Notes under the pieces: generated by a model
Told to the model about the DNA's origin: nothing
What the model saw: the letters and a program-made list of their open reading frames with translations, nothing else
Databases searched by the model: none
From: Methanocalculus alkaliphilus
GTDB lineage: Archaea > Halobacteriota > Methanomicrobia > Methanomicrobiales > Methanocorpusculaceae
Direction of reading: 5' to 3'
NCBI RefSeq assembly: GCF_024170505.1
Contig: NZ_JALJYG010000001.1
Location: forward strand, 1-64,000
DNA: 64,000 bases
Program-made: the position numbers and the translations under genes
Shown here: in pieces, positions 4,583 to 19,534 of the stretch
Numbering within the stretch: the stretch's first letter is position 1
Layout of the letters: every line of letters begins with the position of its first letter

Positions 4583-6655
4583 TCAGGCCTCCTTGATCTT
4601 CTCAACGGCAACAGCACAGGCCTTGAACTCCGGAATCTTCGATATTGGATCGAGGGCGTCGTTTGTCAGGACATTGGCTGCACATTCGGCAAAGTGGAAC
4701 GGCATGAACATCACGCCTTTCATGATATCCTTTGTCACACGGGCAGGCACATTGATCTGGCCACGCCGGGTCTTTGCGATGATCATCTCGTTGTCGGCGA
4801 TACCAAGTGCTTTGGCATCATCGACATTGATCTCGATCCACCCGGTGGGCTGTTCGCTGTCAAGTGATGCGGAGCGCCGGGTCATACCACCGGTGTGCCA
4901 GTGGAATAAGCTCCGGCCGGTCGTCAGGATGAACGGATACTCGGCGTCAGGAACCTCTGCCGGCGGCTTGAACGTGATCGCCGTCATCAGACCCTTACCG
5001 TCGGGCATGACCGGGGCAAATGCCGTGGTATGCAGGATCGGGGTGCCCGGGTGGTCGGCTGCAGGGCAGGGCCACTGAAGCGCTTCGGGTTTGTTGAGAC
5101 GCTCATAGGACATACCGGCATAGGACGGGGTCAGGCTGGTGATCTCGTTGAAGATATCTTCAGCAGACTGCCAGGCGAACTGCTCGGCATAGCCCATCTT
5201 TGCGGCAACCTCGGCGATGATCTGCCAGTCGAGTTTTGCCTGGCCGGGGGCTTCCTGGGCCTTTCTGAGACGCTGGACACGACGCTCGGTCGAGACCTGG
5301 ACACCATCCTTCTCGGCAAAGCAGGTGGCGGGGAGGACGACGTCAGCCATCTCGGCGGTCTCGGTCATGAAGATATCCTGGACGACGAGGAACTCAAGCT
5401 TCTCAAGCGCATCCTTCACATGGGAGAGGTTGGCATCAGAGAGCATCGGGTTCTCGCCCATGATGTACATGCCCTTGAGTTCACCAGGCTTCTCATTGAG
5501 CGTCTTGAGCATGATGGTGACCTCATAGCCGTTCTCGGGTTTGCAGATACCGTCCGAAAAGCCCCAGGCATCGGAGAACTTCTTGTGGGCAGCTTCATCG
5601 ATGACCTTCTGGTAGCCGGTGAAGACGACGGGGAGACAGCCCATGTCACAGGCACCCTGGACATTGTTCTGACCACGGAGCGGGTTCACACCGGTGCCGG
5701 GACGGCCGATGTTGCCGGTCAGCATGGCAAGGTTGGCAACGGATTTGACGTTGTCAACACCGGTGGTGTGCTGTGTGATACCCATTGAGAAGAGAACCGA
5801 GGAGGCGCCGCTTGTGGCATACCATTCGGCAGCCTGCTTCAGCTGGGCGGCGGGGATGCCGGAGATGGTCTCGACGTTCTCAAGCGAGTATTCGGGCTTC
5901 ATGACTTCGCCTTTCAGGGCGTCATACTCGACACACCGCTTCTCGATGAACTCTTTGTCTTCCCAGCCGTTCTTGATGATCTCCTGCATCATCGCGTTGA
6001 AGATGGCGACATCGGTCCCGCTCCTGAACTGCATGTACAGGTCGGCCTGCTTGCCGGTCGGGGTGAGACGGGGATCGGCATAGATCAGTTTGGCGCCGTT
6101 CTTCTGGGCACGGGCGACACTCCGGCCGATGAGCGGGTGCTGCTCAAAGGTGTTGCTCCCGATGATGAAGATGCACTTCGATTCGGCGATGTCGGCGATC
6201 GAGTTGGTCATTGCACCGGAGCCAAACGTCGTTGCAAGGCCGGCAACGGAGGAGGAGTGGCAGAGACGGGCACAGTGGTCGATGTGCGTCGTCTTCAGGG
6301 CACCACGGGCGAACTTCATGATCGCGTAGTTGTCCTCGTTGCTGACACGGGCAGAGGCAAGGACGCCAACCTCGCTCGGCTGGTATGATTTCAGCTTGCT
6401 GGCGATGAGCTCGTATGCCTCGTCCCAGCTGGCTTCAACGAACTTCCCGTCCTTCTTGATGAGCGGGGTGGTCAGCCGGTCTTCACTGTTAATGAACTCG
6501 TGCGCATAGACGCCCTTTGGACAGAGCTTCCCCTCGTTGACGGGGGAGCGCTGGTACGGGGCGACGCCCACGACCTTGCCGTCGTTGACGACCAGGTTCA
6601 TGCTGCAGCCTGTCCCGCAGTACGGGCAGGTGGTTTGTACATATTTCATTGCCAT
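4583..6655 (-). CDS. fdhA: formate dehydrogenase alpha subunit, cysteine type
   Basis: A 690-residue molybdopterin oxidoreductase that oxidises formate to CO2. The N-terminal [4Fe-4S] site is CPYCGTGC (Cys10, 13, 17) plus Cys45. The residue that is selenocysteine in some formate dehydrogenases is Cys132 here (HCARLCHSSSVAG). The molybdopterin-binding middle and the C-terminal dinucleotide-binding domain (LTTGRSLFHWHTGGMTRRS) are present. The start at 6655 is chosen because GAGGT lies 7 nt upstream. It is the first gene of fdhAB, divergent from mobB, which fits a need for the guanine dinucleotide cofactor. Confidence 0.95.
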   Translation of the reverse strand: MAMKYVQTTCPYCGTGCSMNLVVNDGKVVGVAPYQRSPVNEGKLCPKGVYAHEFINSEDRLTTPLIKKDGKFVEASWDEAYELIASKLKSYQPSEVGVLASARVSNEDNYAIMKFARGALKTTHIDHCARLCHSSSVAGLATTFGSGAMTNSIADIAESKCIFIIGSNTFEQHPLIGRSVARAQKNGAKLIYADPRLTPTGKQADLYMQFRSGTDVAIFNAMMQEIIKNGWEDKEFIEKRCVEYDALKGEVMKPEYSLENVETISGIPAAQLKQAAEWYATSGASSVLFSMGITQHTTGVDNVKSVANLAMLTGNIGRPGTGVNPLRGQNNVQGACDMGCLPVVFTGYQKVIDEAAHKKFSDAWGFSDGICKPENGYEVTIMLKTLNEKPGELKGMYIMGENPMLSDANLSHVKDALEKLEFLVVQDIFMTETAEMADVVLPATCFAEKDGVQVSTERRVQRLRKAQEAPGQAKLDWQIIAEVAAKMGYAEQFAWQSAEDIFNEITSLTPSYAGMSYERLNKPEALQWPCPAADHPGTPILHTTAFAPVMPDGKGLMTAITFKPPAEVPDAEYPFILTTGRSLFHWHTGGMTRRSASLDSEQPTGWIEINVDDAKALGIADNEMIIAKTRRGQINVPARVTKDIMKGVMFMPFHFAECAANVLTNDALDPISKIPEFKACAVAVEKIKEA

Positions 6656-6692
6656 GGTTAAACCTCGGACACTGTTAGGTTGATAATCCAGA

Positions 6693-6701
6693 GTATTTAT
6701 A
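6693..6701 (-). promoter_or_regulatory. TATA box of the fdhAB operon
   Basis: TATAAATAC on the minus strand, preceded by an A/G-rich stretch that could be the BRE. Transcription would start near 6670, leaving a leader of about 15 nt before the fdhA ATG. It lies in the 161-bp divergent region shared with mobB. Confidence 0.55.
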
Positions 6702-6816
6702 CATAGCCATTTTTCTCGATTTTATGATGAATAACAGTGGAATCGCCCACCACATACCCGGTGGCAGAGGAAGAAACTATCAGGATATGCCAGAAGAATA
6801 AAGAGTACGTGATCTG

Positions 6817-11200: not shown

Positions 11201-11962
11201 ATGGCATACAAACCACAGTATGGACCGGGAACCTCAAAGGTCGCCGAGAACAGGCGCAACCAGATGAACCCGGAAGTAAAACTTGAAAAGATTCGCGATG
11301 TAACAGACGAGGACGTTGTCCTCATCATGGGACACCGTGCACCAGGTCAGGCATACCCGACCGCACACCCGCCACTCGCAGAGCAGGGAGAGCCGGACTG
11401 CCCGATCAGGAAGATCGTCGCCCCAACCGAGGGTGCAAAGGCAGGAGACCGCGTCCGGTATATCCAGTTCGCAGACTCGATGCTCAACGCACCGTCCCAG
11501 CCATACCAGAGGACCTACGTCGAGATGTACCGCTACCGTGGTATCGACCCGGGTACACTCTCAGGCCGTCAGATCGTTGAGTGCCGTGAGCGTGACCTTG
11601 AGCAGATTGCAAAGGATCTCATCAACACAAACCTCTTCGACCCCGCACGGACAGGTATCCGTGGAGCAACAGTTCACGGACACTCACTCCGTCTTGCAGA
11701 AGACGGCATGATGTTTGACATGCTCCAGCGCTGTGTCCTTGAGGCAGATGGTCTTGTAAAGTACGTCAAAGACCAGATCGGTGTCCCGCTCGACAAGAAG
11801 GTCGCAGTCGGCAAGCCGATGGACGAGAAGTGGCTCGGTGAGAACACGACAATCTTCCATGTCCTCGGTGGCAACCCCTACCGTAATGATGCAGAGTACA
11901 TTGAATACATCCAGCGTATCCACAGCCTGAGAACCAAGTACGGATACATGCCAAAGGAGTGA
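11201..11962 (+). CDS. mcrG: methyl-coenzyme M reductase subunit gamma
   Basis: A 253-residue gamma subunit. The start MAYKPQYGPGTSKVAENRR and the internal VLIMGHRAPGQAYPTAHPPL are diagnostic. It forms the alpha2beta2gamma2 enzyme with McrA and McrB. AGGTGAATTATTC supplies the ribosome site, and mcrA follows after 6 nt. Confidence 0.98.
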   Translation: MAYKPQYGPGTSKVAENRRNQMNPEVKLEKIRDVTDEDVVLIMGHRAPGQAYPTAHPPLAEQGEPDCPIRKIVAPTEGAKAGDRVRYIQFADSMLNAPSQPYQRTYVEMYRYRGIDPGTLSGRQIVECRERDLEQIAKDLINTNLFDPARTGIRGATVHGHSLRLAEDGMMFDMLQRCVLEADGLVKYVKDQIGVPLDKKVAVGKPMDEKWLGENTTIFHVLGGNPYRNDAEYIEYIQRIHSLRTKYGYMPKE

Positions 11963-11968
11963 TAAAAG

Positions 11969-13675
11969 ATGGCAAAGATTGAGAGAGCACAGAAACTCTT
12001 CCTGAAGGCACTGAAGGAGAAGTTCCCGGGACAGGATGTAGAATCACAGAAGACCAAGTTCTATGCATTTGACGGTGTGAACCAGTCTCCCCGTAAGAAG
12101 GAGTTTATGGCGGCAAACGAGAAGATCGTCAAAGAGCGTGGAATGGATATGTATGACCCGGAGCGGTGCCACCTTGGTGGTGTCCCGATGGGCCAGCGCC
12201 AGCTGATGACCTACGAGGTCTCAGGAACCGGCACCTTCGTCGAGGGTGACGATCTCCACTTCGTCAACAACGCTGCAATGCAGCAGTTCTGGGATGACAT
12301 CCGGAGAACCGTTATCGTCAACATGGACCTTGCCCACCAGACACTCCAGAAGCGTCTCGGCAAGGAAGTTACCCCTGAGACGATCAACGAGTACCTCCAC
12401 GTCGTCAACCACGCAATGCCCGGCGCAGCCGTCGTTCAGGAGCACATGGTCGAGACCCACCCTGCACTCACCGATGACTGTTACGTCAAGGTCTTCACCG
12501 GAGACTCCGAGCTTGCAGACGACATCGAGCCACAGTTCCTCCTCAATGTTGAGAAGCTCTTCCCCAAGAAGCAGGCTGAGGCACTGATGAACGCAGTCGG
12601 CAAATCCATGTGGCAGTGTGTCCACATCCCGACAACCGTCTCCCGCACCTGCGACGGTGGAACGACCTCCCGGTGGTCCGCCATGCAGATCGGTATGTCC
12701 TTCATCGGTGCATACCGGATGTGCGCAGGTGAAGCAGCAGTCGCTGACCTCTCCTACGCCGCAAAGCACGCTGGTGTTATCCAGATGTCTTCCCACCTGC
12801 CAGCCCGCCGTGCCCGTGGTCCAAACGAGCCAGGTGGTATCCTGTTTGGCAACTTCGCCGACATGATCCAGGCAGACCGGAAGTATCCAAACGACCCCGC
12901 CCGAGCAACACTTGAGGTTGTCGGTGCAGGTGCAATGCTCTTTGACCAGATCTGGCTCGGCTCCTACATGTCCGGTGGTGTCGGATTCACCCAGTATGCA
13001 ACCGCTGCATACACCGACAACATCCTCGATGAGTTCACCTACTACGGTATGGACTACATCAAAGACAAGTACAAGGTCGACTGGCAGAACCCGAACCCCG
13101 CAGACAAGGTCAAGCCAACCCAGGAGATCGTCAACGACATCGCAAGCGAGGTCAACCTCAACGGTATGGAGCAGTACGAAACATACCCAACGATGCTCGA
13201 AGACCACTTCGGTGGTTCACAGCGTGCAAGTGTCCTCGCAGCAGCATCCGGTATCTCCACCGCAATCGCAACCGGTAACTCCAACGCCGGTCTGAACGGA
13301 TGGTACCTCTCCATGCTCATGCACAAAGAGGGATGGTCACGTCTCGGATTCTTCGGCTACGACCTGCAGGACCAGTGTGGTTCAGCAAACTCACTCTCCG
13401 TCCGGCCTGACGAGGGCTGTATCGGCGAGTTCCGTGGACCAAACTATCCAAACTACGCAATGAACGTCGGCCACCAGGGAGAATACGCAGCAATCGCCGG
13501 ATCCGCCCACTATGGACGTGGCGATGCCTGGACACTCTCCCCGCTCATCAAGATCTGCTTCGCAGACCCCGCCCTCAAGTTCGACTTCTCCGAACCAAGG
13601 AAGGAGTTTGCACGCGGTGCGATCCGCGAGTTCATGCCAGCCGGCGAGCGCTCGCTCATCATCCCCGCAAAGTGA
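11969..13675 (+). CDS. mcrA: methyl-coenzyme M reductase subunit alpha
   Basis: A 568-residue alpha subunit carrying the F430 site. Recognisable segments are [20 protein letters not shown], used in mcrA phylogeny, the [14 protein letters not shown] segment, and [20 protein letters not shown]. The length is normal for Methanomicrobiales. It is the last gene of mcrBDCGA, followed by a T-run and then the mtr operon, a common arrangement in methanogens. Confidence 0.99.
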
Positions 13676-13905: not shown

Positions 13906-14805
13906 ATGGAGAACATCGTATTAGGTATTGGAGTGGCTGCCCTCGCGGGAGCACTTGCAACGGTTGCAGGTGCAGCTGAAGATACCGAGTCTGATATCGG
14001 ATCACAGGGTGATCCCAACTCTCAGGTTCAGCTGGCTCCGCAGATGGGATACAATCACCGTATCTTTAACAAGGCCATCGCAGGTGAGCCCCCGGCATGG
14101 GCTCTCTGGATTGCAATTGGTGCTGGTGTCGCATGGGCATTTATGATAATGAACGTTAACCCCGTTTTATCTATCATAATTGGAAGTATCCTCGCATCCT
14201 TCGTTCAGGGTGTCTATGCAACCACCGCCTATCTCGGCAGGACAGCAAGTCTTGCAAAGTTCGGCCAGCCAGTCTATGTTGATATACTGAAATCAGTGAC
14301 ACCCGTCACTGTCGCACACGCATTCGTTGCAATCTTTACGACTGTGACGATTGTGTATCTTATGAACGCAGTACTCGGTCATCCGTTCCCACTGCCAATC
14401 CTCGGTATCATCTGGGGTATCGCACTCGGAGCAGCCGGTTCTGCCGTCGGAAACCCATTCTATGGGAAAGAACGCCAGTACCAGAACCAGAAGTTCGGAG
14501 CAGGTGTCCCGATCTCAGCATCCGGAAACATCGTCCGGTATGCAGAAGCCGGTGAAAGAAGCTCACTCGACAACGGATGGTTCACCTCAAAGTTCGGCGG
14601 TCCCGCATCAGGTATCTGTTTTGGGCTGATCGTCTTCTTTGAACTCTGGAGGCACCTTATCTTCGAGCATTACTTCGGAGGGTGGGGATCAGTCATGATG
14701 GGAGCGATTATTGTCCTTATCATCACGATCATGGCCCGCTACATCGAGGTCTGGGCTCGGAAGACCTATGGTCCGTACACTGCACCCGAAGAGGAGGCAA
14801 TATAA
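13906..14805 (+). CDS. mtrE: tetrahydromethanopterin S-methyltransferase subunit E
   Basis: A 299-residue membrane subunit of the Na+-pumping methyl-H4MPT:coenzyme M methyltransferase. Several hydrophobic segments are visible (for example VLGIGVAALAGALATVAGAA and VMMGAIIVLIITIM), and there is a large polar part with PQMGYNHRIFNKAIAGEPPAW. GGGAG lies upstream of the ATG at 13906. First gene of the mtr operon; the stop codon abuts mtrD. Confidence 0.97.
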   Translation: MENIVLGIGVAALAGALATVAGAAEDTESDIGSQGDPNSQVQLAPQMGYNHRIFNKAIAGEPPAWALWIAIGAGVAWAFMIMNVNPVLSIIIGSILASFVQGVYATTAYLGRTASLAKFGQPVYVDILKSVTPVTVAHAFVAIFTTVTIVYLMNAVLGHPFPLPILGIIWGIALGAAGSAVGNPFYGKERQYQNQKFGAGVPISASGNIVRYAEAGERSSLDNGWFTSKFGGPASGICFGLIVFFELWRHLIFEHYFGGWGSVMMGAIIVLIITIMARYIEVWARKTYGPYTAPEEEAI

Positions 14806-15663
14806 ATGTCAGCGATCGCAAGTAAGCCGGCAGGCGGAGCAGAGATGCCCGTCATGGGAGCCGCAATCGCAGTCGTATTGCTGCTTGCAGTTCTTGGTAT
14901 CGGATTTGGTCTGACAATCGCAGGTATCTTCCCGATGGCCGCCTTCTATTCCCTCATCGGAATTATTATCGGCGGAATGCTTGTTACATTCAGTGTGCAC
15001 CTCGTTCCTGTCGGCGGAGCGCCGGCGGCAATGGGTCAGGCACCAGGTATTGCAACCGGTGTCACGATGCTTGCAGCAGGTGCAGGTCTTGCCGGTCTCT
15101 TTAAGGGAGCATGGGCAGCACAGTTCAGCTACCCGGTCGCTCTCGGAACCGGTGCCATCGGCGGCGCACTTCTGATGGCCATCACCTGTATGCTTGTGAA
15201 CGTCACGTACGTCTTTGCAATGGGAATTCCCGCCGCATCAGGAAAGGTCAGCAAAGACCCACTGACCGGCGACACACAGCCGGAATATAAAAGCCAGGGT
15301 ACTGAGGGGCACGGTCTTCCGTTCATCTCTTATGTTGGAGGTGTCCTTGGAGGTCTTATCGGAGGTTTCGGCGGAACGCTCATCTACCTCTCACTCTATG
15401 ACGCCTACCTGACCGGTATTCCAGCACTCATGGGAACAGATGTTGAGAGTGCCATGCCGCTGATCGTATCTATTGCAGGTATCTTTGCAATCGGTATGTT
15501 CCTTGTCAACGCCGTCATGACCGCATACAACATCACCGGAACCATCGAAGGGCCACATGACCCCAAGTTCAAGCGGTTCCCACGTGCAATTGTTGCAAGT
15601 GCTGTCGCATCAGCTCTCGCCGGTCTGCTCGCCCTGTTGATTATCGTACCGGTGCCATTCTGA
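14806..15663 (+). CDS. mtrD: tetrahydromethanopterin S-methyltransferase subunit D
   Basis: A 285-residue membrane subunit with six or more hydrophobic helices and the family segment GGAPAAMGQAPGIATGVTML. MtrC, MtrD and MtrE form the sodium-conducting part of the complex. The ATG follows the mtrE stop without a gap. Confidence 0.97.
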   Translation: MSAIASKPAGGAEMPVMGAAIAVVLLLAVLGIGFGLTIAGIFPMAAFYSLIGIIIGGMLVTFSVHLVPVGGAPAAMGQAPGIATGVTMLAAGAGLAGLFKGAWAAQFSYPVALGTGAIGGALLMAITCMLVNVTYVFAMGIPAASGKVSKDPLTGDTQPEYKSQGTEGHGLPFISYVGGVLGGLIGGFGGTLIYLSLYDAYLTGIPALMGTDVESAMPLIVSIAGIFAIGMFLVNAVMTAYNITGTIEGPHDPKFKRFPRAIVASAVASALAGLLALLIIVPVPF

Positions 15664-15673
15664 GGTGGAGAAG

Positions 15674-16519
15674 ATGACAGTAAAAGTAGAAGCATCCGCT
15701 GACGCAATCCCTCACAACACCCTTCTGATGGTCGGAATTGTCGGATCCATACTCTGTATCTATCTGACATATCTCAATACCATCACCGGACTTGAGTTAT
15801 TCTCATTCTTCGGAGGGCTTGGAGCAGTTATCGCTCTTATCTGGGGAACAAGCACCATCAAAAGACTCTGCAGCTATGGTATCGGAACAGGTGTTCCATC
15901 CGCTGGTATGGTCGCATTTGGTGCAGGTATCATCGCCATGCTCCTTGGAACCAAATTCGGCATTGCATCCCCGATCGCTGCCCTTATCATTGCAGCAGTC
16001 GCCGGAGCAGTCTTTGGATTCCTTGCAGACAATGTATTGAATATGAAGATCCCGGTTCTGATGCAGTCTCTTGCAGAGCTCTCGGTCATCGGTGCACTCA
16101 CCATCCTCGGCTTTACCGCGATGGCGACCGGTGACTTTACCTTCAGTGCGATCTCAGCCGGAACCATCTCGATCTTCGGATTTGCAATGAGCTCAGCAAA
16201 CGCATCCTACCTCGGTGGAGGTGTTATCGCTGTCGCATTCATGCTTGGTGCAATCGCAATCCAGCACCCGTTCAATGCAGCGCTTGGCCCGTCGAACACA
16301 CAGGATCGGACACTCATGCTCGCCGCAGAGTGTGGATTCCTCTCCATGATCATTATGGCAGTCATCTCCTTTGCATTCATTGCTGTCGGAGCGGCACTCG
16401 TCGGCCTGCTGATAGCGATCATCGGATGGGGCTACACCTACACACAGTTCATCGAGCTCTCAAAGCGCGATGCAGCAGCGTGGCTTGACGCTAAACCGAT
16501 TCTGGAGACTGAGGCCTGA
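15674..16519 (+). CDS. mtrC: tetrahydromethanopterin S-methyltransferase subunit C
   Basis: A 281-residue membrane subunit, hydrophobic almost throughout, ending in a short polar tail. The start is set at the ATG at 15674, which has GAGGTG upstream at the spacing used elsewhere in this operon. An in-frame GTG at 15665 is part of that ribosome site and is not preferred. Confidence 0.96.
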   Translation: MTVKVEASADAIPHNTLLMVGIVGSILCIYLTYLNTITGLELFSFFGGLGAVIALIWGTSTIKRLCSYGIGTGVPSAGMVAFGAGIIAMLLGTKFGIASPIAALIIAAVAGAVFGFLADNVLNMKIPVLMQSLAELSVIGALTILGFTAMATGDFTFSAISAGTISIFGFAMSSANASYLGGGVIAVAFMLGAIAIQHPFNAALGPSNTQDRTLMLAAECGFLSMIIMAVISFAFIAVGAALVGLLIAIIGWGYTYTQFIELSKRDAAAWLDAKPILETEA

Positions 16520-16535
16520 AGGAGAGGTGATAAAT

Positions 16536-16823
16536 ATGGGATATGTTCTTGTATTACCCGAATTCGGCCTCGTCGCCGACCCGGTCATTGGATTTGTAAC
16601 CACCGCCGGAGAGTCCTACCAGCCGATCATCGATAAGGTTGCTGAACTTGAGATGGTATCAGAGGATCTCATCGGCATGCTCTCTGGAGAAGGCCAGCTG
16701 CTCAACAGTTTCCCTGGAAGAGAGAAGTCGCTGCTCTATGCCGGAGGTGTCACAGCCTTCTGGTATGGACTGGCAGTAGGTCTGCTCATTGCGGCATTCA
16801 TGGCGTTCCAGTATATGGGGTGA
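16536..16823 (+). CDS. mtrB: tetrahydromethanopterin S-methyltransferase subunit B
   Basis: A 95-residue protein with a soluble N-terminal part (MGYVLVLPEFGLVADPVIG) and one C-terminal transmembrane helix (FWYGLAVGLLIAAFMAFQYM). The ATG at 16536 has GGAGAGGTGA upstream; the longer open frame from 16470 overlaps mtrC and is rejected. Confidence 0.96.
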   Translation: MGYVLVLPEFGLVADPVIGFVTTAGESYQPIIDKVAELEMVSEDLIGMLSGEGQLLNSFPGREKSLLYAGGVTAFWYGLAVGLLIAAFMAFQYMG

Positions 16824-16829
16824 AGAAAG

Positions 16830-17349
16830 ATGGCAGATAAGAAATCACCGGCAAGCGGATGGCCCATCGCAAAGGGAGACTTCCACTCAGGTGACGCAAA
16901 CAGCTGTGTCGCCGTTGTAACAGTGGGATCACACCTTGATGAAGCGGGCATCTGTGCAAGCGGAGCTGCATTGTGTGGATCCTGCAAGACCGAGAATCTC
17001 GGGCTTGAGAAGATCATCGCAAACATCATCTCAAACCCGAATATCAGGTTTGTCCTCCTCTGTGGAACTGAAGTGAAAGGGCACTTAAGTGGCCAGTCGC
17101 TTGAGGCACTCCACAAGGGCGGTGTCTCCGGAGGAAAGATCGTCGGAGCAGAGGGAGCAATCCCCTTCATCGAGAATCTTGATGATGCCGCGATCAAGAG
17201 GTTCCAGGAGCAGGTTGAAATCGTTAACATCATGGAGACCGAGGATCTCGGTAAAGTTAACGCCAAGATCTCAGAACTGGCCGGAAAGGATCCCGGAGCA
17301 TTTGCCGGCGACCCGATAGTTGTCGAGGTCAAAGAGGCAGGCGGTGGCG
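16830..17349 (+). repeat. direct repeat copy 1 (mtrA cobamide domain)
   Basis: About 520 bp that match 17757-18276 almost base for base, offset by 927 bp. The encoded 174 residues differ at only three positions that I can see (D3/E, K15/Q, G160/A). Similarity stops abruptly after the GGGG hinge. Confidence 0.95.
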
Positions 17350-17555
17350 GTGCAGAAGAAGCAACAGGTGAGGTTAAGCCCCTCTCTGGAGAGCTTGCAC
17401 TCATCCACGCCCGCATGAAGATCATCGAGAGAATGGTAACCAACATCGGTATGCAGAACCGGTTCGCCGCAGGCGTATACTCGGGGAAGGTTGAAGGACT
17501 GATGATCGGTCTGATCGTTATATTTACCATTCTTGGATTCCTTCTGATGGGGTGA
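16830..17555 (+). CDS. mtrA: tetrahydromethanopterin S-methyltransferase subunit A
   Basis: A 241-residue corrinoid subunit that carries the methyl group between H4MPT and coenzyme M. Residues 1-174 are the soluble cobamide domain. His85 in [10 protein letters not shown] matches the known cobalt-ligand histidine (His84 in other MtrA). Residues ~187-241 include [20 protein letters not shown] and a C-terminal membrane helix, so this is the canonical full-length form. The first ~520 bp recur almost exactly in the second mtrA-like gene 927 bp downstream. Confidence 0.97.
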
Positions 17556-17560
17556 GATAG

Positions 17561-17746
17561 ATGGCAGGTTCAAGCATCCGAATGAACGCAATTGACAAAA
17601 TGGTTGAGAACATCCGATACAAAGCCCAGATCATCGCCCGGACGAATAAACTTGAATCCGGGATTATGTCTGCGGGCATTCCCGGCTTCATCATCGGGCT
17701 CATGCTCGCCCTGGTCGTTGTGATGGTACCGGTTCTGGTTCTCTGA
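17561..17746 (+). CDS. mtrF: tetrahydromethanopterin S-methyltransferase subunit F
   Basis: A 61-residue protein with a short polar N-terminus ([20 protein letters not shown]) and one C-terminal transmembrane helix. This matches stand-alone MtrF in length and position between mtrA and mtrG. It sits between the two direct repeats of the MtrA domain. Confidence 0.93.
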
Positions 17747-17756
17747 GGTGAAAAAA

Positions 17757-18276
17757 ATGGCAGAGAAGAAATCACCGGCAAGCGGATGGCCCATCGCTCA
17801 GGGAGACTTCCATTCAGGTGACGCAAACAGCTGTGTCGCCGTTGTAACAGTGGGATCACACCTTGATGAAGCGGGCATCTGCGCTAGCGGAGCTGCATTA
17901 TGCGGATCCTGCAAGACCGAGAACCTCGGGCTTGAGAAGATCATCGCAAATATCATCTCAAACCCGAATATCAGGTTCGTCCTCCTCTGTGGAACTGAAG
18001 TGAAGGGACACTTAAGTGGCCAGTCGCTTGAGGCACTCCATAAAGGTGGTGTCTCCGGAGGAAAGATCGTCGGAGCAGAGGGAGCAATCCCCTTCATCGA
18101 GAATCTCGATGATGCCGCGATCAAGAGGTTCCAGGAGCAGGTTGAAATCGTCAACATCATGGAGACTGAAGATCTCGGTAAAGTTAACGCCAAGATCTCA
18201 GAACTGGCCGGAAAGGATCCCGGAGCATTTGCCGCTGACCCGATAGTTGTCGAGGTCAAAGAGGCAGGCGGTGGCG
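17757..18276 (+). repeat. direct repeat copy 2 (MtrA domain of the fusion)
   Basis: The second copy of the ~520-bp mtrA segment at 16830-17349. Most base differences are silent third positions, which suggests selection together with recent duplication or gene conversion. Confidence 0.95.
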
Positions 18277-18494
18277 GGCATGAGACGGCAATAGCTGGCG
18301 CCAACCCGCAGTTCCTCGAGCTTGAGGAACGACTCGACAAGATCGAGAAGAAGATAGAATTTGCAGACTCTGAGATTGCCCAGAGGGTGGGCAGGAAGAT
18401 CGGGCGTGACATCGGCATCCTCTATGGCCTCGTAGCAGGGGTTATTGTATTTATCATGTTGCTGATGATCCTTCCGAAAATTAGTATGCTCTAA
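17757..18494 (+). CDS. MtrA-MtrG fusion: second cobamide domain joined to subunit G
   Basis: A 245-residue protein in the place where mtrG is expected. Residues 1-174 are a nearly identical copy of the MtrA cobamide domain, with the ligand His85 kept. Then comes a GGGG hinge. Residues ~188-245 read like MtrG: a coiled region [20 protein letters not shown], the signature [13 protein letters not shown], and one membrane helix. No separate mtrG exists in the operon, so this gene must supply the MtrG function. The ATG at 17757 follows GAGGTG; an in-frame GTG at 17748 is part of that site. The upstream operon mate is mtrF, the downstream one mtrH. Confidence 0.93.
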
Positions 18495-18511
18495 CGTGAG
18501 GTGTTCCAACT

Positions 18512-19534
18512 ATGTTCAGGTTTGAGAAAGAACAGACCGTTCTCGACTTTAACGGCATAAAAATCGGTGGACAGCCCGGCGAATACCCAAGGGTACTCGG
18601 TGCATCCATCTTTTATAATAAGCACGAGACCGTGCTCGATGATCACACTGGTAAGATCGACAAGCCAAAGGCAGAAGCGCTCTGGAACCGGTGTATGGAG
18701 CTGTACGATATCACAGGAAACCCGTACTTCATCCAGATCATCGCCGAATTTGGCGAGGCATTCGAAAGCTACTTCAGCTGGTTCGACAGTATCGACAACA
18801 AAACCCCGTTCCTGATGGACTCATCAGCACCGGGAGCACTTGCACATGCATGTGAATATGTAACCGAGGTCGGCCTTGCTGACCGTGCCATCTACAACTC
18901 GATCAACGGATCGATTCCGCAGGAGAACATCGATGTACTTGCTGCATCCGATGTGAACTCCGCGATCGTCCTTGCCTTCAACCCGGGCGACCCATCAGTC
19001 GTCGGCCGTGAGAAGGTTCTTGTCGAGGGTGGCGTTGCAGGACAGGCAAAAGGAATGCTTCAGATCGCAGAAGAGGCAGGTATCACCCGCCCGATCCTCG
19101 ATACTGCAGCAACCCCGCTCGGTCTTGGATCCGGCGGATCATTCCGTGAGATTCTTGCCTGTAAGGCGATCCATGGTCTCCCAACCGGTGGTGCATACCA
19201 CAACATGACCGTCTCATGGACCTGGCTGAAACGCTGGAGAAAGAATGTCCTTGCAGACCATTACAAAGGAAAAGATGTCCTCCTTGAACAGATGGCACAC
19301 CACCACTTTGGCGGGTTTGAGGGTATCAGGCAGACTGCATGGGCAGCCCCTGACATCGGATGTAACATCATGGCAATGACACTTGGTGCCGATCTAATTA
19401 TGTTTGGCCCAATCGAGAACTGCGAAGGGATGGCAACCACAGCCGCATTCACCGACATCGTCCTCGCAGAGGCATGCCGTGAACTTGGCGGAGATGTTCA
19501 GGATCCAAACCACCCCCTGAACAAACTCATCTAA
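18512..19534 (+). CDS. mtrH: tetrahydromethanopterin S-methyltransferase subunit H
   Basis: A 340-residue soluble subunit that transfers the methyl group from methyl-H4MPT to the corrinoid of MtrA. Family segments include FRFEKEQTVLDFNGIKIGGQ at the N-terminus, TPFLMDSSAPGAL and VAGQAKGMLQIAEEAGI. GTGAGGTG lies upstream of the ATG. Last gene of the mtr operon, followed by a T-run. Confidence 0.97.
   Translation: MFRFEKEQTVLDFNGIKIGGQPGEYPRVLGASIFYNKHETVLDDHTGKIDKPKAEALWNRCMELYDITGNPYFIQIIAEFGEAFESYFSWFDSIDNKTPFLMDSSAPGALAHACEYVTEVGLADRAIYNSINGSIPQENIDVLAASDVNSAIVLAFNPGDPSVVGREKVLVEGGVAGQAKGMLQIAEEAGITRPILDTAATPLGLGSGGSFREILACKAIHGLPTGGAYHNMTVSWTWLKRWRKNVLADHYKGKDVLLEQMAHHHFGGFEGIRQTAWAAPDIGCNIMAMTLGADLIMFGPIENCEGMATTAAFTDIVLAEACRELGGDVQDPNHPLNKLI

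Follow-up and report, generated by a model that had tools for sequence, protein, structure and literature searches.

The MtrA-MtrG fusion gene of Methanocalculus alkaliphilus: a further member of the mtrA-2b genes of Methanomicrobiales

Does an mtr operon in which the place of mtrG is taken by a gene for an MtrA cobamide domain followed by MtrG encode a genuine fusion, is this fusion a known one, and what would a second cobamide domain mean for the complex? Energy conservation in hydrogenotrophic methanogenesis centres on the Mtr step; the question is raised here by M. alkaliphilus, of which a 64,000-nucleotide stretch of DNA (the window) was analysed together with the whole genome and with related loci from other methanogens.

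The fusion gene and its operon

The mtr operon of M. alkaliphilus runs from 13906 to 19534 in the order mtrE-D-C-B-A-F-[A-G]-H, i.e. the fused gene lies between mtrF and mtrH (Table 1). All Mtr subunits A-H are recognisable and the MtrA and MtrG parts align to chains of the structures 8q3v and 9qtq. An earlier note on this DNA had claimed that a full MtrA cobamide domain with its His85 is joined in frame to MtrG, and this is confirmed by the open frame and by the agreement of two profile collections. Pfam matches MtrA (PF04208) at residues 4-172 (E 5e-82) and MtrG (PF04210) at residues 185-237 (E 9e-23; 80 bits as compared with a curated cut-off of 27 bits), both matches being well above the curated cut-offs, and NCBIfam finds TIGR01111 mtrA and TIGR01149 mtrG. 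An alternative GTG start at 17748 is less likely than the ATG used here.

Table 1. Coordinates of the mtr genes in the window and of the parts of the fusion gene
Feature	Position	Strand	Remarks
mtrE	13906..14805	+	PF04206, E 5e-127
mtrD	14806..15663	+	PF04207, E 7e-90
mtrC	15665..16519	+	PF04211, E 3e-69; GTG start
mtrB	16536..16823	+	PF05440, E 9e-29; start taken at ATG 16536 (MGYVLVLPEF...)
mtrA-1	16830..17555	+	PF04208, E 9e-82; TIGR01111 full length
MtrA-domain half of the homogenised repeat, copy 1	16830..17352	+	172 codons
mtrF	17561..17746	+	PF09472, E 1e-23
mtrA-2b (MtrA-MtrG fusion)	17757..18494	+	open frame, ATG 17757 to stop 18494, 245 aa
MtrA domain of the fusion, copy 2 of the homogenised repeat	17757..18279	+	PF04208; His85 = residue 85
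Junction linker after GGGG (HETAIAGAN region)	18280..18308	+	low pLDDT; 15-17 aa in relatives
MtrG part: coiled region, 13-residue motif, one membrane helix	18309..18491	+	PF04210
mtrH	18512..19534	+	PF02007, E 5e-94

The fused domain has both hallmarks of group I MtrA proteins, i.e. the axial histidine (His84/85) and the Rossmann-type fold, and the MtrG part has the conserved coiled segment, the 13-residue motif and the single membrane helix. AlphaFold models the fusion with moderate confidence (mean pLDDT 74), as an MtrA fold, a disordered linker (pLDDT below 50 across residues 170-190) and a long helix at residues 184-244. In a Foldseek search the MtrA domain matched 5l8x, 5laa and 9qtr with a TM score of about 0.9 of the target.

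Two details of the earlier description have to be modified. The GGGG that was regarded as the hinge of the fusion is present, but it is not specific to the fusion: the sequence EAGGGG is found at the equivalent place of mtrA-1, so the homology between the copies extends past GGGG. The glycines thus belong to the MtrA linker, which puts the fusion junction at about residues 174-184. Similarly, the MtrG part was called complete; its coiled region, motif and helix are there, but the first ~10 positions of the PF04210 model are missing (the match starts at position 11), and the MtrA linker stands in for the corresponding residues of a free MtrG.

A normal membrane-anchored mtrA is also present, as had been noted: mtrA-1 consists of the MtrA cobamide domain and its own C-terminal membrane helix. 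In the whole genome (2.09 Mb, 99.9% complete) there are two MtrA places, both in the mtr operon, and a single MtrG match, which is inside the fusion. In other words, no separate mtrG was found in the whole genome, in agreement with the earlier note. We also note that mcrG and mcrA, recognised from their translations at 11201-13675 of the window, lie directly upstream of mtrE, so that the mcr and mtr operons are adjacent.

Previous descriptions and distribution

The fusion is already known. Wang, Chen, Cao and Lou (G3, 2015) described the mtrA-G fusion of Methanomicrobiales as mtrA-2b and found the MtrA domains of both copies to be homogenised through recurrent gene conversion (PMC4632066), i.e. 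it has been published as a standard feature of the whole order. A survey from 2018 lists mtrA of Methanomicrobiales and Methanococcales among the genes with long-lasting concerted evolution (PMC6053082). The gene of M. alkaliphilus shares with mtrA-2b the architecture, the position between mtrF and mtrH, the accompanying mtrA-1 and the homogenised MtrA domain, and there is no substantial difference. The best matches to the fusion are in Methanocalculus chunghsingensis (95%) and M. taiwanensis (91%), which places the organism in Methanomicrobiales, nearest to Methanocalculus. We therefore identify the gene as mtrA-2b, a further member of a family that all examined Methanomicrobiales have instead of mtrG.

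Similar fusions are known from other lineages. An mtrA-F fusion, mtrA-2a, occurs in Methanococcales and in Methanocella arvoryzae and has been described as having arisen independently (PMC4632066). It likewise puts a second cobamide domain, homogenised with mtrA-1, on a small one-helix stalk subunit, but the partner is MtrF, mtrG is free and the gene sits between mtrA-1 and mtrG (PMC4632066). Fusion of mtrF with mtrG has been noted as frequent (PMC9982363), and the [AF] fusion of TACK archaea, Methanoliparia and ANME-1 (EDCB[AF]FGH, PMC9982363) also joins MtrA to an MtrF-like helix; unlike mtrA-2b it is the only cobamide domain of its operon, which has a separate mtrF and a free mtrG. Two loci of ANME-1 relatives (L053 and L054, 5856-7326) have one MtrA, anchored by an MtrF-like part, and behind it a small gene of its own; they match this [AF]F arrangement. 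In a Methanocella genome (PtaU1.Bin125, L048, 5191-7313) one operon contains mtrA-1, an mtrA-F fusion and, next to each other, two MtrG genes.

The search for an N-terminal MtrA domain in MtrG homologues, which the earlier note had proposed, was carried out on 232 Methanomicrobiales species genomes from 40 genera, and it turned out that the fusion is the rule throughout the order and not peculiar to one genome. A search of the whole class covered the same genomes, Methanomicrobiales being its sole order. MtrG was found in 179 of the 232 genomes, and in 127 of the 135 good-quality ones. Among the 150 matches listed of the 179, an open frame of at least 230 aa surrounds MtrG in 101, and a free mtrG was not found. 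In the genomes sampled from other lineages MtrG is free wherever it was matched, i.e. in Methanosarcinia (61/61), Methanocellia (4/4) and Methanopyri (3/3). In two Methanosarcinia genomes second MtrG-like stretches, possibly pseudogenes, with one in-frame TGA were noticed (G283:C129:3845-4018 and G295:C179:38847-39020).

It could be argued that a duplicated mtrA and a free mtrG were joined by chimeric assembly or through a frameshift, since the 523-bp duplicated domain does break or gap assemblies and many contigs end within it. We consider the probability of this negligible. The frame is identical in isolates and single-contig genomes of many genera, no free mtrG was seen among the matches listed for the order, and the same frame in the isolates M. 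chunghsingensis (L004) and M. taiwanensis (L005) rules out an artefact, so that the frameshift or assembly error named in the earlier note as grounds for rejection is excluded. The short MtrG frames are in keeping with a difficult repeat: those away from a contig start were inspected and correspond to contig ends, N-gaps or one draft frameshift in the duplicated domain, while the others start close to the beginning of a contig, at most a few hundred bases away. N-gaps lie in the duplicated domain in three genomes (L114, L115, L118), small N-runs in a fourth (L130), and the draft frameshift is near a contig end (L132). A frameshift shared by both mtrA copies of L114 was considered and rejected, as Ns occupy the site in both. 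Broken contigs within the repeat probably also explain why eight good-quality genomes have no MtrG match.

Contig ends or N-gaps inside the duplicated MtrA domain are seen in many Methanomicrobiales drafts (e.g. L103-L113, L114, L115, L118), so mtrA or mtrG may be reported missing in this order. Moreover, the NCBI mtrA model also matches over the full length of the fusion; mtrG may thus seem absent from the order both because this model spans the fusion and because the near-identical repeats break assemblies.

Relationship and conservation of the two MtrA copies

The two MtrA copies were compared in 39 distinct loci (species pairs) that contain both. Within a genome the MtrA domains are on average 96.9% identical (minimum 83.1%), as compared with about 78% between species for either copy, and in 33 of the 39 cases the paralogues are sisters in the DNA tree. 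In M. alkaliphilus the copies are 95.7% identical at the nucleotide level; 21 of the 172 codons differ, with 3 amino-acid changes (169/172 aa identical). The fused MtrA domain is 98.3% identical to the mtrA-1 of its own genome vs 93.6% to its best orthologue, the two form a sister pair in the DNA tree, and dS between them is 0.18 as opposed to 0.43-0.55 to Methanocalculus chunghsingensis, the value for the nearest orthologue of the fusion being 0.55. The near-identical stretch extends from about the start codon to just past GGGG, which means that only the cobamide domain is homogenised. This comparison reproduces the published gene-conversion account.

Two Methanomicrobium genomes (L032 and L033, around 5046-6741) depart from this pattern: the identity of the copies is down to 83%, and the sequences of both species group by copy and not by genome. 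Gene conversion has thus lapsed here since before the two species split, which makes Methanomicrobium an exception to the published pattern. A Methanospirillaceae MAG (L038, 5023-6711) also has copies that are only 84% identical (dS 1.1), and its fused copy is shorter (237 aa).

Both copies keep His85 in each of the 39 pairs; it is one of 72 domain positions that are invariant throughout. Methanomicrobium serves as a natural control: between L032 and L033 the dN/dS of the fused domain is about 0.06, despite the divergence of the copies. Only 1 of the 29 differences between the Methanomicrobium copies falls into the contact or His-linked segments for MtrH/MtrCDE binding (segments as given in PMC10998594); since these segments are nearly invariant in all sequences compared, this speaks of a constraint on both copies, and not of a difference between them. 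The drifted fused domains of L032, L033 and L038 keep His85 and the contact segments. The fused domain is thus under purifying selection, i.e. it is used, which does not in itself establish turnover of the two domains within the same complex.

A probable second B12 carrier in the Mtr complex

In the known Mtr structures (PMC10998594, PMC12774963) the stalk at the centre of the complex is built from three copies each of MtrA, B, F and G, whose N-termini are cytoplasmic, and a flexible linker leaves the cobamide domain of MtrA free to move. These two papers do not mention the fusion, and the complexes of known structure, from Methanothermobacter marburgensis (8q3v) and Methanosarcina mazei (9qtq), contain free MtrG only. 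The subunits A-H are recognisable in all cases; the canonical complexes differ from the one considered here in the free MtrG and in having one cobamide domain per protomer.

In the fusion, the MtrG helix would occupy the normal place of MtrG within the (ABFG)3 stalk. Since MtrG and the MtrA anchor both have their N-termini at the cytoplasmic end of the stalk, the fused domain would be held beside the mtrA-1 domain; its flexible linker is about as long as that of mtrA-1 (15-17 aa vs 18-19 aa). The protomer would then have two interchangeable B12 carriers, i.e. six per trimeric complex, and each of the two would pick up methyl groups at MtrH and deliver them to the MtrCDE cavity. During the recharging of one carrier the other would more often be methylated and available, and gene conversion would keep the two matched to the MtrH and MtrCDE surfaces that they share. 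The number of Na+ per methyl group transferred would probably be unchanged. We consider two interchangeable carriers per protomer the most likely reading, and a reasonably probable one, the stoichiometry, the loading and the effect on Na+ coupling being inferred. Two cobamide domains per protomer agree with the geometry of the stalk as published and with the purifying selection that acts on the fused domain. The attachment to MtrF in Methanococcales would achieve the same result by another route, an analogy that favours selection for a second carrier; we infer such a role, rather than a structural or regulatory one, for the fused domain.

Other readings are conceivable. The fusion may be made and then cut in its linker, which would leave a normal MtrG and release a soluble MtrA domain, either to serve as a free carrier or to be degraded. 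The linker is predicted to be disordered, a membrane MtrA has been cut behind its soluble domain in order to crystallise it, and other methanogens have MtrA homologues that are free in the cytoplasm (PMC4915002). However, the frame is kept across the order, which would not be required if the protein were cleavable, and the length of the linker is conserved within the narrow range given above, so we find this reading improbable. It is also unlikely, in our opinion, that a protomer has just one of its cobamide domains loaded or active and the second mainly provides gene dosage or a conversion template for the repair of mtrA-1. The domains are almost identical in most genomes and Wang et al. proposed that conversion helps to purge deleterious mutations (PMC4632066), both of which would be in line with such a role. 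On the other hand, His85, the contact segments and, in L032 and L033, purifying selection persist where the copies have drifted apart, which suggests that the fused domain is maintained for a function of its own.

If the fused domain is indeed a second carrier, the Mtr complex of Methanomicrobiales may have six working cobamide domains per trimer, two per Na+ pump unit, that alternate at MtrH and MtrCDE, and the kinetics or the regulation of Na+ coupling may differ from those of the canonical complex; we give this extended picture an even chance. In the literature we found no report of such a six-domain alternating mechanism for the Mtr of Methanomicrobiales, nor any proteomics, cobamide count or stoichiometry, Na+-coupling measurement or structure of it.

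The fusion is ordinary for the order Methanomicrobiales, and the gene itself is no discovery. Judging by recent structures, the coupling of methyl transfer to Na+ export appears to depend on a single mobile B12 domain. An order-wide natural variant that would have two B12 domains per pump unit is a ready-made test of this shuttle model.
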